In this document: positions 3,172-64,000 of the stretch, piece after piece
Layout of the letters: each line of letters begins with the position of its first letter
How positions within the stretch are numbered: position 1 is the stretch's first letter
Source of the DNA: Lamellibrachia satsuma
Lineage: Eukaryota > Annelida > Polychaeta > Sabellida > Siboglinidae
Length of the DNA: 64,000 bases
Direction of reading: 5' to 3'
Assembly: GCA_033239005.1 (NCBI GenBank)
Contig: BSQZ01000070.1
Span: forward strand, 1,319,617 to 1,383,616
The notes under the pieces: model-generated
The model's input: the letters and a program-made list of their open reading frames with translations, nothing else
The model's database searches: none
What the model was told of the DNA's origin: nothing
Position numbers and translations under genes: made by a program

Positions 3172-3910
3172 TCCAGGTTCATGCCTGGTGAATAAAGTAC
3201 CAGTGATGTTGTTTGGTTCATGCCTGGTGTATAAAGTACTAGTGATGTTGTTTAGTTCATGCCTGGTGAATAAAGTACCAGTGATGCTGTTTAGTTCATG
3301 CCTGGTGAATAAAGTACCAGTGATGCTGTTTAGTTCATGCCTGGTGTATAAAGTACCAGTGATGTTGTTTAGTTCATGCCTGGTGTATAAAGTACCAGTG
3401 ATGTTGTTTAGTTCATGCCTGGTGTATAAAGTACCAATAATGTTGTTTAGTTCATGCCTGGTGTATAAAGTACTAGTGATGTTGTTTAGTTCATGCCTGG
3501 TGTATAAAGTACTAGTGATGTTGTTTAGTTCATGCCTGGTGTATAAAGTACCAGTGATGTTGTTTAGTTCATGCCTGGTGAATAAAGTACCAATGATGTT
3601 GTTTAGTTCATGCCTGGTGAATAAAGTACCAGTGATGTTGTTTAGTTCATGCCTGGTGTATAAAGTACCAATGATGTTGTTTAGTTCATGCCTGGTGTAT
3701 AAAGTACCAGTGATGTTGTTTAGTTCATGCCTGGTGTATAAAGTACCAGTGATGTTGTTTAGTTCATGCCTGGTGTATAAAGTACTAGTGATGTTGTTTA
3801 GTTCATGCCTGGTGAATAAAGTACCAATGATGTTGTTTAGTTCATGCCTGGTGAATAAAGTACCAATGATGTTGTTTAGTTCATGCCTGGTGTATAAAGC
3901 ACCAGTGATT
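3172..3910. repeat. 39-bp minisatellite, about 19 units
   Basis: The unit is 39 bp (core TTCATGCCTGGTGTATAAAG followed by TACCAGTGATGTTGTTTAG). Variants differ at a few fixed sites, such as GAATAAAG/GTATAAAG and ACCAGTG/ACTAGTG/ACCAATG. Because 39 is divisible by 3 and the unit has no stop in one plus-strand frame, it creates a 242-codon open frame of a 13-residue hydrophobic repeat. There is no sign that this frame is a gene. The mixed order of variants suggests local gene conversion or unequal exchange. Confidence 0.95.
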
Positions 3911-4636
3911 TTGTGATGGTGTCACTTTTGAAGGATCCATGTCTTGCACCCTTGAACAGGGAAGTGGCCATATTTGTTATTTAAGCACTAGCTGCACTAT
4001 AACATTTTATTCTGACATGTCAGTCCTGCTCATTGGGCAAGTTATTTACAACTTCTGGTCTTCATTAGCAGTGCCAGACATGGCCTTACACTGCCAATTA
4101 CTTACCACTGATTATATGCATCATTTCATAGGAGAGTTGGCAGTGGTATTGGTTCATTAATGCCCAGGTCAGATTTACTGCAGTCCTTAACCAAGGAAGA
4201 CAGGGATAGATCTGCTATAATGGGAACAGGCTGCTGGAGGCAGATTCCCACCTGACACCTCCTACTTGCTGGTTGATAAAGAGGATGCACCCAGATTGCC
4301 TGGTAATTGGTGATTAGTGTGCTGATTGCAGCACAGGCAGAGGGAGGTGGGGTTGACAGGCATGGTGGCAGATTGTGGAACTGTTTATCTCTGCTATTGA
4401 CATCAGGGCCATGTTAGCTCAGGTGTGGCAATGCTGCTTAGTGCTTGATGGATCTTGATGGTTTATTCTAATTCATATATAACCATAACTTCCATAATTA
4501 AGTAAGTCATAATTGTCCTGTTGTGAAAATGGTGGAATTTAAGGCACGTTCAGTACATCCACTCGTAATGGCATCAGTAGTGCAGAAATAGTGTTAACAT
4601 TAACGTGCAAGGCCATTACAGAAAGGTGAACTGTCA

Positions 4637-16695: not shown

Positions 16696-16997
16696 TGAAA
16701 TAGTAGTATCGTATAACATTTCGCAATTACAATGCTCTATAAACAACAATTGACTCGAAAACAATAATACTGTAGCGTACAACAAGTCAACAGCATTTCG
16801 CTAAGACGTGGAAACAGTTGAAAATAGCGAAGAATTCGTTAGTTGTTTCGGCCCACGGCACCCGCTGGCACCGGTTGCATACACGGATGGTTCGGCCCAT
16901 GCGAGCGAAAACACTTCACAGTTCACCGGTTGCGCCGTTGGATGGTTCGGCCCATGGGCCGAACCCGTTATGGGCCGAAACATCCGACACCTGTAAA
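16696..16997. other. foreign block in the LINE, with palindromes
   Basis: Replaces or interrupts the RT segment that should carry the catalytic ADD motif. It contains four copies of a TTCGGCCCA motif in both orientations, a perfect 22-bp palindrome at 16944-16965, and outer inverted repeats (GTTTCGGCCCACGG at 16844-16857 against TTATGGGCCGAAAC at 16968-16981). Two imperfect direct copies of CACCGGTTGC-N-GGATGGTTCGGC lie between. It may be a small foldback element; no target duplication is clear. Confidence 0.6.
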
Positions 16998-17690
16998 AAA
17001 CAAGGGTCCCAGCACGCTACCCTGTGGTACACCAGAGCATAAACCAACACTTCTTGAGGTGACGTTATCAACTTTAACAGCTTGCGTTCGCTGCGAAACG
17101 TACGACTGTATCCAGCGGTGTGTGTTGTCACGTACGCCAATTTCGTGCAGTTTGTCTAGAAGCAGACGGTGATCAACAGTATCGAAGGCAGCACTGAGAT
17201 CGAGCAACACCAATATCACGGTATTCCGATTGTCGAGCGAATGTAGAATGTCGGCCTGTATACGAACGAGGGCTGTTTCACAGCTGTGAGCAGGACGATA
17301 CGCACTCTGAAAAACATCGAAGAAATCATTCGAGTCCATGTACTGCCGGATTTGCGATGCTACATACTTCTCGAGGAGTTTTGATATGAAACTCAGGTTG
17401 GATATCGGTCGGTAGTTGGATAGTAGTTCAGGGTCAAGATCACTCTTCTTTAACAATGGTGTCACGACTGTGTGTTTCATAACAGCTGGCATTGTTGAGG
17501 ACTCGATCGACAGGTTCACAATGCGTGTTAACACCGGTGCGAGCGTAGCAATGTTCGATTTAAGCAGGGTTGCAGAAATGATGTCGATGTCAGTTGAAAG
17601 TTTGCTAGTACCCTTCATTACCAGATTACAGATGCCATTGCATGTAGCTAGTTCGAAGTCACAAAGAGGATCCACAACGTAACAGTCATT
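16998..17690 (-). pseudogene. LINE RT catalytic region, N-terminal part
   Basis: A minus-strand frame with RT blocks in order: STMPAVMKHTVVTPLLKK, NYRPISNLSFISKLLEK, FQSAYRPAHSCETALVRI, LLDLSAAFDTVDHRLLL (RT motif A, first catalytic Asp), and SGVPQGSVLGPL (motif B). The frame then runs into foreign sequence, so the second catalytic motif (ADD) is missing. Upstream the frame continues open through the 66-bp minisatellite to 18005, which produces an artificial repeat-RT fusion. Confidence 0.9.
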
Positions 17691-17697
17691 ATCATAT

Positions 17698-18093
17698 AAA
17701 AGTACTTTACATAGACCTCCGGCAGGAACAATGACACTCAAGCACCTTTGTTTAATCAGATCCTTAAGTACTTTGTATAAACCTCCTGCAGGAACGATGA
17801 CACTCAAGCACCTTTGTTTAATCAGATCCTTAAGTACTTTGTATAAACCTCCTGCAGGAACGATGACACTCAAGCACCTTTGTTTAATCAGATTCTTAAG
17901 TACTTTGTATAAACCTCCTGCAGGAACGATGACACTCAAGCACCTTTGTTTAATCAGATTCTTAAGTACTTTGTATAAACCTCCTGCAGGAACGATGACA
18001 CTCAAGCACTTTTTTTAATCAGATTCTCAAGTACTTTGCATAGACCTCCTGCAGGAATGATAACACTCAAGTACCTTTGTTTAATCAGATTCT
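17698..18093. repeat. 66-bp minisatellite, six units
   Basis: Six units of AAGTACTTTGTATAAACCTC, CTGCAGGAACGATGACACTC, AAGCACCTTTGTTTAATCAG and ATTCTT. The 66-bp length keeps a 22-residue frame open on each strand. The outer units are more diverged than the central ones. Confidence 0.95.
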
Positions 18094-18636
18094 CAAGTCT
18101 ATGTTTTTAGTTGCACAAGCTTGAACCCAGACCTGGAAAACCATACAGAATTCCCATGTATAGTGCAGATTTTTGGAGAAATACTGTATCCCACTTTAAT
18201 ACGGAAACATCTTTAAAAAGTACATATTTTCTTGCGCTCATTGCACCAGTATAAAATTGAATGACAAAAAAATAGGAACATTTGATGCTAGGCAGATTTC
18301 TGATGAAATCTAGCGGATTTTATTTTATGTAGGTATACTTCATAGTCTAATAAGATGATGACACTCGGTTAGAATAGGAATGCTGATTAACCAATGAAAA
18401 CTTTTATGAATTTGTACGGCTTTACAGAGAATTTCAAGTCAAAAATACGGATTTGAGCCAAAACAACATGGCTGGTCTGTGAACCTCACAACACAAGCTA
18501 GAAGCTAGAAGACTGAGCAACCACCTTTCGCCACAGGTATGGAGGGGATTGCCTGGAGATCACCCATCCGTTCTTTGATATTGTCAAACCACATCTTTCT
18601 TGGATGTGGTTTTCTTATTTTCTTCTTCCCCATTTC
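18094..18636. other. intergenic, faint LINE-like fragment
   Basis: Mostly featureless. On the minus strand at about 18510-18630 a short frame with a KMWFDNIKERMGDLQA-like string resembles the C-terminal tail of some LINE-encoded proteins, but the match is too short to be certain. Confidence 0.3.
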
Positions 18637-25609: not shown

Positions 25610-25828
25610 ATGTCTCCTGAACAGGAAACTGCACAGCGAGGTTCAAGTGTTCCTGGTGCCATGGTTACGAGTGAGGATGCGTCGGATTCCACGTGTTCTG
25701 CTCCTACTATTTGCCCTGTGCGCCGCCACAATGATCTTTGTCGCCCGATGTGGCCTCAACTTCGACCCTCCGAATATGCAGTCGACTGCGCCAAAGATAC
25801 GTCGATCAGCCATTGCAAGTTACCATGA
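25610..25828 (+). promoter_or_regulatory. possible upstream ORF overlapping the CSGALNACT start
   Basis: ATG codons at 25610 and 25661 (the latter in a strong GCCATGG context) precede the true start at 25677 in a different frame. The frame runs through exon 1 to about 25828. If the transcript includes 25610-25676, this overlapping frame would dampen translation of the enzyme. It is real as sequence; its role depends on where the transcript begins. Confidence 0.35.
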
Positions 25829-25859
25829 CGACACCAACGTGCACACAGAGATACAACCG
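25677..25859 (+). CDS. CSGALNACT: chondroitin sulfate GalNAc-transferase, coding exon 1
   Basis: Encodes the N-terminal 61 residues: a short basic cytoplasmic tail (MRRIPR) and one hydrophobic segment, about residues 7-23 (VLLLLFALCAATMIFVA), which is the signal anchor of a type II Golgi membrane protein. A stem region follows. I chose the ATG at 25677 because it gives the MRR-anchor start expected for the family and has A at -3. The donor CCG|GTACAA leaves phase 0, matching the phase-0 acceptor of exon 2. A second donor, AAC|GTGCAC after 25838, is also in phase 0 and would shorten the stem by seven residues. The last 21 nt of the exon are also the start of the intron minisatellite. Confidence 0.85.
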
Positions 25860-26887
25860 GTACAATATGGACCCTCTCATTCTTAAAGTACATACAGAGA
25901 TACAACCAGTATGGAATAGACCCTCTCATTCTTAAAGTACATACAGAGACACAACTGATATGGTATAGACCCTCTCATTCTTAAAGTACATACAGAGGTA
26001 CAACTGATATGGTATAGACCCTCTCATTCTTAAAGTACACACAGAGATACAACTGATATGGTACAGACTCTCTCATTCTTAAAGTACACACAGAGATACA
26101 ATTGATATGGTATAGACCCTCTCATTCTTAAAATACATACAGAGATACAACTGATATGGTATAGACCCTCTCATTCTTAAAATACATACAGAGATACAAC
26201 TGATATGGTGTAGACCCTCTCATTCTTAAAGTACATACAGAGATACAACTGATGTGGTATAGACCCTCTCATTCTTAAAGTACACACAGAGATACAACTG
26301 ATATGGTATAGACTCTCTCATTCTTAAAGTACACACACACAGATACAATTGATATGGTATAGACCCTCTCATTCTTAAAATACATACAGAGATACAACTG
26401 ATATGGTATAGACCCTTTCATTCTTAAAGTACATACAGAGATACAACTGATATGGTATAAACTATCTCATTCTTAAAGTACATACAGAGATACAACTGAT
26501 ATGCTATAGACCTTCTCATTCTTAAAGTACATACAGAGATACAACTGATATGGTATAGACCTTCTCATTCTTAAAGTACATACAGAGATACAACTGATAT
26601 GGTATAGACCTTCTCATTCTTAAAGTACATACAGAGATACAATTGATATGGTATAGTCCTTTTCATTCTTAAAGTACATACAGAGATACAATTGATATGG
26701 TATATACCCTCTCATTCTTGAAGTACATACAGAGATACAACTGATATGGTATATAACATACCCTCTCACTCTTAAAGTACATACAGAGATACAACTGATA
26801 TGGTATGTAACATACCCTCTCACTCTTAAAGTACATACAGAGACACAACTGGTATGGTATAGACCTTCTCATTCTTAAAGTATTGTG
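25839..26887. repeat. 49-bp minisatellite in intron 1, about 21 units
   Basis: The unit is GTACATACAGAGATACAACT, then GATATGGTATAGACCCTCTC, then ATTCTTAAA (49 bp). The first unit (25839-25887) has the same length and begins inside coding exon 1, where GTGCACACAGAGATACAACC encodes the end of the exon and the donor follows at 25860. Its first 20 nt match the second unit at 18 of 20 positions. The array fills about two thirds of the 1549-bp intron. Units near the right end carry small insertions (TATAACATACC). Confidence 0.95.
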
Positions 26888-27408
26888 GGAGTGACCTTTG
26901 AATCTCAAGGGAATAACACTTTCGATTTCCACATTGAAAGATACTAGATTCCATGACTTCCGTCCACAATTACAAGAAAACGGAGGTTCAGTAACAATAT
27001 CTATTCTTACAGTTCTTCACACTTCTTTTGGTAGCTCAGTGAATATGAAGTCTTACATGAACTGTATGTTTTGGTAACTACATCAAACATATGGTTTCCA
27101 ATGTGCTATCCATGTATGTGTGCAGTTTTTTCTACAAAATCATGTGAAGATTGGAGGCCAGTGTTCCATAAGTACAACAACTTAATTGTGTAATTAGCAA
27201 CAGCAAGTATCTTTACAAGAATGTATCTCAAATTTAATCTTTAGTAATGAAAGATTCAATCATATTCTCTTGACTGATTTTCATCATATAGAGTGCAGTA
27301 TATCGCGAATGGCGTGTTCACTGTCCAGAATTATTTATGGGTGAAAAGGGGCATATAAAGAAAATCATGTCCCAGGTTAATGACATGGTTGACGTCCTCT
27401 GTTAACAG

Positions 27409-28839
27409 CGATTCCAGAACGATGCAGCAGAGGCAGACAGGGCGGAATCTGAAACAGGGGAGGACTACCTGCGTGAGATGACGCGACTGCGCACACAGAT
27501 CGCACACCTGCAAGAGCAGTTGACAGAGGCACGCACAATGGCAAAAGATGTCCAGCGTGAGGTGCCCAAGAATCTCAAATACGAGGAGATGGCTCGGTTC
27601 TACGAAAAACACTTTGCAAAGCAGCGCAGTGAAGCTGAGCTGACGAGTGGCGTCCCACTGAACAACGAGTATGAGCTGTTTCCATTCAGCCGATTCACGC
27701 TCACGCGAGTTTACATCACTGAGCCAGGGCTCGGTAAACGTGTCGTTGAGAAACCGATTGGGGCGAAAAAACGAGACTTGCTTGAGGTGATCGATTCTGC
27801 CATCGAGAAACTCAACAGTGATGGTGTCGACAGGATCAGCAAGTACACGGTTGATGATTTCCTTGAGGGAATCTATCGAACGGTGCCCAGTATTGGGACG
27901 CAATATGAGTTGTACTTCCATAATGTCGATGAGCCAACTGGTGGCCCCGCCTATCAGAAGGTGACGCTTGCACGACTTTATGGCCCGATCAACATAATCG
28001 AGACGGTTGTACGCAACACAAAGAGAGACATGATCAACTTGATTCTGCCGCTGTCGGGACGTGTCGACAAATTCGAGGCATTCATCAAGCGCTTTGTGAG
28101 AATGTGTGTGCGTCGTGACAAGCGCGTCTTTCTAACCATCGTATACTTCCGCACGGCCGGTCTCAACCAGGTGCGACACATCATCACGTCACTGACGAAA
28201 CGATTTCATTTCAAGAATGTCCGCCTGGTGACTCTCGACGAAGACTTCTCGCGCGGTCGTGGCTTGCAGGTCGGCGCACAAAGCTGGCCAAATGGCGATG
28301 TGCTCATGTTCCTTTGCGACGTCGATATCGTCTTCACGACGGATTTCCTCGAGCGTTGCCGATTGAACACGCAAAAGGGCCGCCGTGTCTATTACCCGAT
28401 TGTCTTCAGCCTGTACAATCCACAGGTGGTGTATTCGCTCCAGGATATGCCGATTCCTCCAGAAAAGGACCAGTTGATCATCTCGAAGGATGCCGGATTC
28501 TGGCGCGACTTTGGTTACGGCATGACATGCCAGTATCGCTCCGATTTCGTGAAGATCAAAGGCTTTGATGAGAAGATCACAGGATGGGGGTTGGAGGACG
28601 TGTATCTGTACAGGAAGTATGTCAAGAGCGAACTGATGGTGGTCCGAGCCACTGACCCGGGTATCTTCCATCTGTGGCACGAGAAGGATTGTGACTTGAA
28701 ACTACCGGCCGACCAGTACCGTGGTTGTATCCGGTCGCGGGCTCTGAACGAGGCCTCACATGCACAATTGGGCATGCTGGCATTCAAAGACGAGATAGAC
28801 GCACACAAGAACTTGCTAAAGAGCCAAAGTCTCAGGTAA
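27409..28839 (+). CDS. CSGALNACT: chondroitin sulfate GalNAc-transferase, coding exon 2 (catalytic)
   Basis: Transfers N-acetylgalactosamine from UDP-GalNAc in the Golgi, starting and/or extending chondroitin sulfate on proteoglycan core proteins. The acceptor TTAACAG|CGATTC is in phase 0. Exon 1 plus this exon give 537 residues, close to the roughly 530-540 of vertebrate CSGALNACT1/2 and far below the larger CHSY/CHPF synthases. Residues 62-115 are a likely coiled-coil stem (MTRLRTQIAHLQEQL). The GT7/CHGN domain follows, with FIEGIYRT-like FLEGIYRT, a metal-binding DxD in FLCDVDIVFT (about 365-367), GFWRDFGYGMTCQYRSDF, and the C-terminal GWGLEDVYLYRKY (about 453-465) then FHLWHEKDC. All the family's key blocks are intact. 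GC content and codon use differ sharply from the surrounding DNA, as expected for a conserved exon. I cannot decide between CSGALNACT1 and 2; an invertebrate may have a single pre-duplication copy. Confidence 0.96.
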   Translation, partial: RFQNDAAEADRAESETGEDYLREMTRLRTQIAHLQEQLTEARTMAKDVQREVPKNLKYEEMARFYEKHFAKQRSEAELTSGVPLNNEYELFPFSRFTLTRVYITEPGLGKRVVEKPIGAKKRDLLEVIDSAIEKLNSDGVDRISKYTVDDFLEGIYRTVPSIGTQYELYFHNVDEPTGGPAYQKVTLARLYGPINIIETVVRNTKRDMINLILPLSGRVDKFEAFIKRFVRMCVRRDKRVFLTIVYFRTAGLNQVRHIITSLTKRFHFKNVRLVTLDEDFSRGRGLQVGAQSWPNGDVLMFLCDVDIVFTTDFLERCRLNTQKGRRVYYPIVFSLYNPQVVYSLQDMPIPPEKDQLIISKDAGFWRDFGYGMTCQYRSDFVKIKGFDEKITGWGLEDVYLYRKYVKSELMVVRATDPGIFHLWHEKDCDLKLPADQYRGCIRSRALNEASHAQLGMLAFKDEIDAHKNLLKSQSLR

Positions 28840-63057: not shown

Positions 63058-64000
63058 AAGTAGTATACGGAGGTTTTTGGGACCCCCTTATCGCCGCAAT
63101 CTAAGATCAAAGGAAGATCAAAGGAATGGCCCCTAATATCGCCCACCCGTTGAAGAGTGCGCGCAGCCAATGAGAGAGCAGTAGAGCGCCCCCTGGCGAG
63201 CGTAGTTGAGCGTAGTGCATGCTGGGTAAGGTAAGCGCCCCCTAGGGACTGGAGGAGGAACGAATATTGACCTAGTTACGTTTACCGGAGGGTCATTAAC
63301 CTAATAAGGAGACGAACACAATCGTACGGTGCACACGTATTTTACTGAATACAACAAAGCGGCAGCAGTACAAACGAGGCGATCGTGTGTGATTGGATAC
63401 AACGAGCTGGGTATGATGAATATGAAGACGATGACGAGGCGACTTGCGAATGGTGACCATCGCGCCAGAGGTCGCGAACTTAGGGGTGTCTCCACCGCGC
63501 CAGAGGTTCGAGGGCGAGCTTACGGGTGGAGCGACCACCGCGCCAGAGGCTCAGTATGATGCGTGATAGTACGGTATACCCTTTTTCAGCAGCTTAATCC
63601 AATCGAACACGCGACAATCGTTAGCGACCAGATCGGTGCGGAAAGCATTGACGAAAGTGCTCATGGGAGCGCCGTTACAACGAAACATGATATAAGTGAC
63701 GCAATATTGTCCGCAAACGTTAGACAGAGGACTCTGAAGCGTCTTGCTGTTATGAGTCCACTCGGAACAGTGTTTGTTCAGAAGGTGCGGAACGCCGCGT
63801 GACGAGGCGGCAGACCGTACGAACAGAAGTATTCGCCGCGCCCGTCGGAGGACAGGTACAGCGCTATCCAATGTTCGCCCGGTTCGTCGCCGTCGTCGGT
63901 GTTGCACACGAAGGCGATCGGCAAAGCGTCAATTGTTGCAGGCAGTCCATCTCGGGGTACGACGCCGCCAAAGACGGACCGGGTCTTCGGATCCATCGCC
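63058..64000. other. GC-richer edge of a likely viral-type element
   Basis: Base composition changes abruptly near 63058 from AT/TC-rich LINE sequence to a CpG- and GC-rich stretch containing a protease gene on the minus strand. TAGTATACGGAGGTTTTTGG at about 63061 may be near an element terminus, but the other end lies outside the window. A tandem CACCGCGCCAGAGG unit recurs about three times at 63459-63550. Confidence 0.45.
63551..63996 (-). pseudogene. adenain-type (C5) cysteine protease, frameshifted
   Basis: Two overlapping minus-strand frames encode consecutive parts of an adenovirus-protease-like enzyme. The upstream frame (63996-63778) has VVPRDGLP, FVCNTDD and GEHWIALYL (catalytic His), then an EYFCSYG block where an acidic residue usually stands before SYG. 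The downstream frame (the part from about 63785 to 63566) has SNVCGQYCVTYIMF (catalytic Cys) and RTDLVANDCRVF. The frames meet near 63780 with an offset of one base, so the gene is broken. Such proteases are standard in Polinton/Maverick elements, adintoviruses and adenoviruses; in an invertebrate genome a Polinton-type element is the best guess. Confidence 0.75.

Follow-up and report, generated by a model that had tools for sequence, protein, structure and literature searches.

A 49-bp minisatellite spans the inferred end of CSGALNACT coding exon 1 in Lamellibrachia satsuma, with a probable origin at the exon-intron boundary

We identified in the siboglinid annelid Lamellibrachia satsuma a minisatellite whose tandem units cross the boundary between coding exon 1 and intron 1 of a CSGALNACT gene; unit 1 is half exon, with the exon end inferred from the vestimentiferan Ridgeia piscesae, and 20 units lie beyond it. 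Positions refer to the window, the whole 64,000-nt stretch of DNA that was analysed (contig BSQZ01000070.1, 1,319,617 to 1,383,616, forward strand), in which the array occupies 25839..26879 on the plus strand. Judged from its sequence, the array probably includes the boundary and grew from it. We assign a probability of about 0.72 to a mirage-type minisatellite, in which a boundary segment was duplicated, the inner units are donor-dead, splicing proceeds from unit 1 and the intron has grown in a near-neutral manner. Mirages were described in amphioxus as minisatellite-like tandem duplications of exon-intron boundaries that are reported to be unstable in length and to leave splicing undisturbed (PMC3087553, PMC3902484). 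The affected amphioxus genes include Adh3, the globins BflGb6 and BflGb9, PGBD5 and troponin C (PMC3087553, PMC3902484).

By its sequence, the gene at 25.6-28.8 kb is a chondroitin sulfate N-acetylgalactosaminyltransferase (CSGALNACT) gene. Coding exon 1 (25677..25859, + strand), delimited by its start codon and by the exon end inferred from alignment to the Ridgeia protein P0001, encodes MRRIPRV...VHTEIQP with an N-terminus of the signal-anchor type. It is identical to P0001 at 49 of 61 residues without gaps, and N-termini like MPRVLLLLF are also present in other CSGALNACT homologues that we fetched. Exon 2 (27409..28839, + strand) carries the entire catalytic part and the stop codon, and matches the Pfam families CHGN (E 2.2e-91) and Glyco_transf_7C. 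The catalytic part lies almost wholly in one exon (27409-28839); in vertebrate CSGALNACT genes it is split over several. The top protein match to exon 2 among the best 120 of 1,271 was again P0001 (89% identical over 99%). At the start of exon 2 only 9 of 21 residues matched P0001, which, set against 49/61 in exon 1, marks the stem region as fast-evolving. P0001, the reference for all our junction alignments, is itself a predicted protein, from a pipeline described as drawing on homology-based, ab initio and RNA-seq-based prediction (PMC9921365). A protein search whose query was exon 1 extended by read-through into unit 1 recovered no homologue.

To place the exon end, we joined exon 1 to exon 2 at every GT between 25781 and 27394 and aligned the first 150 residues of each product, or the whole of shorter products, with P0001. 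Only the GTs at 25839 and 25860 kept the frame, and both lie in unit 1, as the first-pass annotation had proposed for its two candidate 5' splice sites. The GT at 25860..25861 (CCG|GTACAA, phase 0, + strand) gave a product of 537 aa with the best joined alignment (score 590) and is the likely donor, given that the Ridgeia alignment runs gap-free through the junction; the shared coding sequence reads ..H-x-EIQP and then R... The alternative in-frame GT at 25839..25840 (AAC|GTGCAC, + strand) gave 530 aa and a score of 530. We rejected it as the main donor, since it drops 7 residues relative to Ridgeia and has a donor-matrix score of -3.88 versus -1.03 for 25860. If exon 1 ends at the 25860 donor, the array begins 21 nt inside it, in agreement with the annotation. 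Donors at 25781, 25801 and 25819 gave products of 55-61 aa. All those tried from 25888 to 27394 gave 69 aa (score 165), because an in-frame TAA within unit 1 (25884..25886, + strand) stops read-through from exon 1. The array is therefore ruled out as a source of a length-variable protein end, and the length-variable exon end that the annotation had envisaged is excluded at the protein level. The acceptor AG of intron 1 (27407..27408, + strand) lies 528 nt past the last array unit, at a junction common to the P0001 gene model. Its location outside the array led us also to reject the idea that the array gave rise to the intron.

Tandem Repeats Finder (TRF) called the array at 25845-26882 with 20.9 copies of 49 nt, and cutting it by unit yielded 21 units, of which 18 are 49 nt long, one (unit 11) is 51 nt and two (units 19 and 20) are 54 nt. 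The roughly 21 units of 49 bp first annotated were thus borne out; the end of the array, placed there at 26887, lies at about 26882. Unit 1 (25839..25887, + strand) comprises 21 nt of exon, the donor and 28 nt of intron. It matches the array consensus at 41 of 49 positions, where 10,000 shuffles reached at most 25. Its exonic 21 nt alone match at 18 positions, where 100,000 shuffles reached at most 15, and the match reported earlier between its first 20 nt and unit 2 (18/20) was reproduced. The repeat does not continue into the sequence on either side: without gaps, the flanking 49 nt match the consensus at 13 positions before the array and at 19 after it. Mean pairwise identity is 0.907 among all units and 0.923 among units 3-20. 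Within units 3-21, adjacent units (lag 1) average 0.937 identity and units at lag 5 average 0.934, a lag-5 value attained by 1.4% of 5,000 shuffles and one of eight lags examined. Units 5-7 (26035..26181, + strand) share variants with units 10-12 (26280..26428, + strand), a putative copy of that block, and the pattern is consistent with a block duplication.

The unit appears to be private to this locus. A search of the window with the unit core returned 19 matches, all inside the array. A DNA search of the assembly that contains the window (735 Mb, 279 contigs) returned the array itself in a single place; because the search passes over simple repeats and words of very high frequency, its count of off-array matches is a lower bound. 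With the same bound, we rejected the unit as a dispersed repeat. A protein search with the minus-strand ORF of the array found no homologue.

Several lines of evidence favour an origin at the boundary. Both the exonic and the intronic part of unit 1 show homology to the remaining units, the exonic part is coding sequence common to Ridgeia and gap-free over the junction, the unit was absent elsewhere in the window and in the genome DNA search, and the flanks do not continue the repeat. The reverse history would be an older intronic minisatellite beside exon 1 whose first unit captured the donor, adding VHTEIQP to the exon. In its favour, the last residues of exon 1 lie in a fast-evolving stem, and inspection by eye of the other homologues that we fetched showed no counterpart of EIQP. 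Against it, the exon end is common to Ridgeia and therefore at least as old as the split of the two lineages, and neither DNA search met the unit outside the array; we consider this history unlikely. The common exon end predates the split in any case, and does not thereby date the array. The annotation had the array growing from the boundary: the inclusion of the boundary stands, and an origin there, with growth outward from the exon rather than exon capture, is probable.

The copies of the splice donor differ sharply between the edges and the core of the array. At the position that corresponds to the 25860 donor, which we call the home-donor position, GT is present in units 1, 2 and 21, and AT in the other 18 of 21 (units 3-20). 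Home GTs therefore occur in two of the 20 intronic units, at 25909..25910 in unit 2 (CCA|GTATGG, + strand) and at 26852..26853 in unit 21 (CTG|GTATGG, + strand), whereas the first count had put the exon end together with its donor in about 20. Similarly, GTACAT opens 13 of the 21 units and not every one; any GT is found at the unit start in 18. Live edges around a dead core are what we would expect had a donor-dead variant spread through the middle of the array. If GT was ancestral, a single change along the array would suffice, and if AT was, at least two would be needed.

A boundary origin and these donor states together suggest the following history. A 49-nt segment, consisting of the final 21 nt of exon 1, the 5' splice site and the opening 28 nt of intron 1, would have been duplicated in tandem, and slippage or unequal exchange would have raised the number of units to 21. 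While the array expanded, a variant unit whose home donor had gone from GT to AT would have displaced the inner units, so that GT survives only in units 1, 2 and 21. Splicing would proceed from the unit-1 donor at 25860, as the Ridgeia protein indicates, with the other 20 units intronic. An array so placed would be unable to lengthen the protein and could at most divert some of the pre-mRNA to decoy donors, whose use would yield a product of 69 aa that lacks the catalytic part. The likeliest net effect would be near-neutral growth of the intron, with at most a modest drop in productive splicing.

Although the copied home donor is mostly dead, competition by other GT sites is possible on sequence grounds. 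Units 2-21 hold 42 GT sites altogether, and a GT at unit offset 26 is present in 18 of 21 units. We scored the sites with a donor matrix that is approximate and not from the host species, and whose scores give a rough ranking. On this ranking the 25860 donor is weak (-1.03) and 6 of the 42 array sites lie above it. The highest score in the array belongs to the home GT of unit 21 (3.49) and the second to the offset-26 decoy of unit 20 at 26803..26804 (ATG|GTATGT, + strand; 3.23). In U1 pairing, 4 of the 42 equal or beat the 25860 donor. Clean splicing from unit 1 is therefore not obvious, because the real donor scores low and several array GTs score higher. We also considered an RNA structure that hides the decoys and found no support for it: the predicted fold of segment 25800-26100 is less stable than those of its shuffles (z +2.93), with 100 of 100 shuffles at least equally stable.

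These decoys raise the prospect that donor competition is regulatory, with the length of the array or the state of its units setting the share of productive CSGALNACT mRNA. The number of GT sites and the high rank of some of them would provide the means, and human IFI6 offers a precedent for downstream repeat units acting as donors (PMC4526556). Against this, the home donor is dead in 18 of 21 units, every downstream donor would truncate the product at 69 aa, and splicing is reported as unaffected in the amphioxus studies (PMC3087553, PMC3902484); we regard such regulation as quite improbable. A further proposal is that the array silences itself: the GT-to-AT unit would have been favoured and would have spread through the core, growth at the boundary would thereby be tolerated, and array length would still tune the share of productive mRNA through the decoys that are left. 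We hold this proposal to be doubtful. If it is true, selection against competing copies of a splice site would have left its footprint in the dead core and live edges of the array.

The mirage reading is favoured because the published mirages have the same layout and because the home GT here is found only at the ends of the array. In amphioxus, as in CSGALNACT, tandem units cross an exon-intron boundary and one end of the array is coding. The BflGb6 unit is on the acceptor side and measures 150-160 bp, whereas the CSGALNACT unit is on the donor side, measures 49 bp and belongs to another phylum. Many, though not all, of the amphioxus copies are described as retaining splice signals, in contrast to the two home donors among the 20 intronic copies here.

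The minisatellite of human IFI6 (6-16) was reportedly described by Turri et al. in 1995, and use of its downstream donors is said to give longer protein isoforms. Downstream donors of CSGALNACT are not predicted to give such isoforms, as every GT tried between 25888 and 27394 leads to a 69-aa product. Downstream minisatellite units of IFI6 have been described as acting as donors (PMC4526556, PMC3618361), and both genes carry, where a coding exon ends, units that contain 5' splice sites or sequences like them (PMC4526556). The downstream donors of IFI6 are reported to give several mRNAs, whereas those of CSGALNACT would each truncate the product. Internal tandem repeats at human exon boundaries are described as changing gene structure and possibly forming introns (PMC2812944), and tandem duplication has been proposed as a source of some Drosophila introns (PMC2891723). 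New introns are thus proposed for the human repeats, whereas in CSGALNACT the acceptor lies beyond the array and the Ridgeia model shares the intron. Among annelids, large minisatellite arrays are described in intron 1 of earthworm metallothionein (PMC12783039); both are intron-1 minisatellites of annelid genes, and, relative to the part of that report drawn on, a splice site within the unit is described only here. A C. elegans study links intronic minisatellites to splicing decisions. Our literature search for siboglinid minisatellites found none. Earlier reports describe the boundary-spanning layout in a handful of lancelet genes and in one gene of humans; what is apparently new is the lineage, an annelid, and the donor-dead core with live edges.

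A simpler account is coincidence: in a minisatellite-rich genome some arrays will meet splice sites, with no further consequence or special origin. Array density agrees with this, as 20 arrays (period of at least 10, at least 3 copies) cover 8.9% of the window, and 60 arrays cover 11.9% (23,768 bases) of a 200-kb sample of 20 stretches of 10 kb, each taken at 1.00-1.01 Mb of a contig. A single stretch, L005 (C4:1000001-1010000), contributes 6,717 of those bases; arrays thus fill 6,717 of its 10,000 positions, the longest being 3,139 nt. In a genome this dense in arrays some splice sites must meet them, and an array at a splice site is unsurprising. Exon DNA may, on the other hand, be more or less array-prone than the sampled bulk. 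Coincidence is also compatible with the mirage explanation, from which it differs only in denying meaning, and it would make the GT-to-AT pattern accidental; we give it an even chance. A single case shows neither enrichment nor depletion of arrays at splice sites.

Other repeats in the window touch open reading frames. At 17700-18098, 6.1 tandem copies of a 66-bp (22-codon) unit, a second array that starts in coding-type sequence, lie at the upstream end of an ORF with a reverse transcriptase domain (16968-18014, minus strand) and are open in its frame. A 39-bp array of 18.9 copies at 3177-3914 has a period divisible by three, which keeps both strands open for over 250 codons. Next to the window end, 63551-63928 (minus strand) and the stretch L003 (C70:1383617-1393616) are GC-rich (0.562) and contain long open frames, which by their polymerase-, integrase- and protease-like motifs look like a Maverick/Polinton-type element.

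The occurrence of this array in an annelid with a minisatellite-rich genome suggests that boundary arrays follow array density rather than being a peculiarity of lancelets. One apparently live donor beside mostly dead copies constitutes a natural test of how a donor is chosen among near-identical neighbours. The same layout also tests whether selection purges copies of splice sites.
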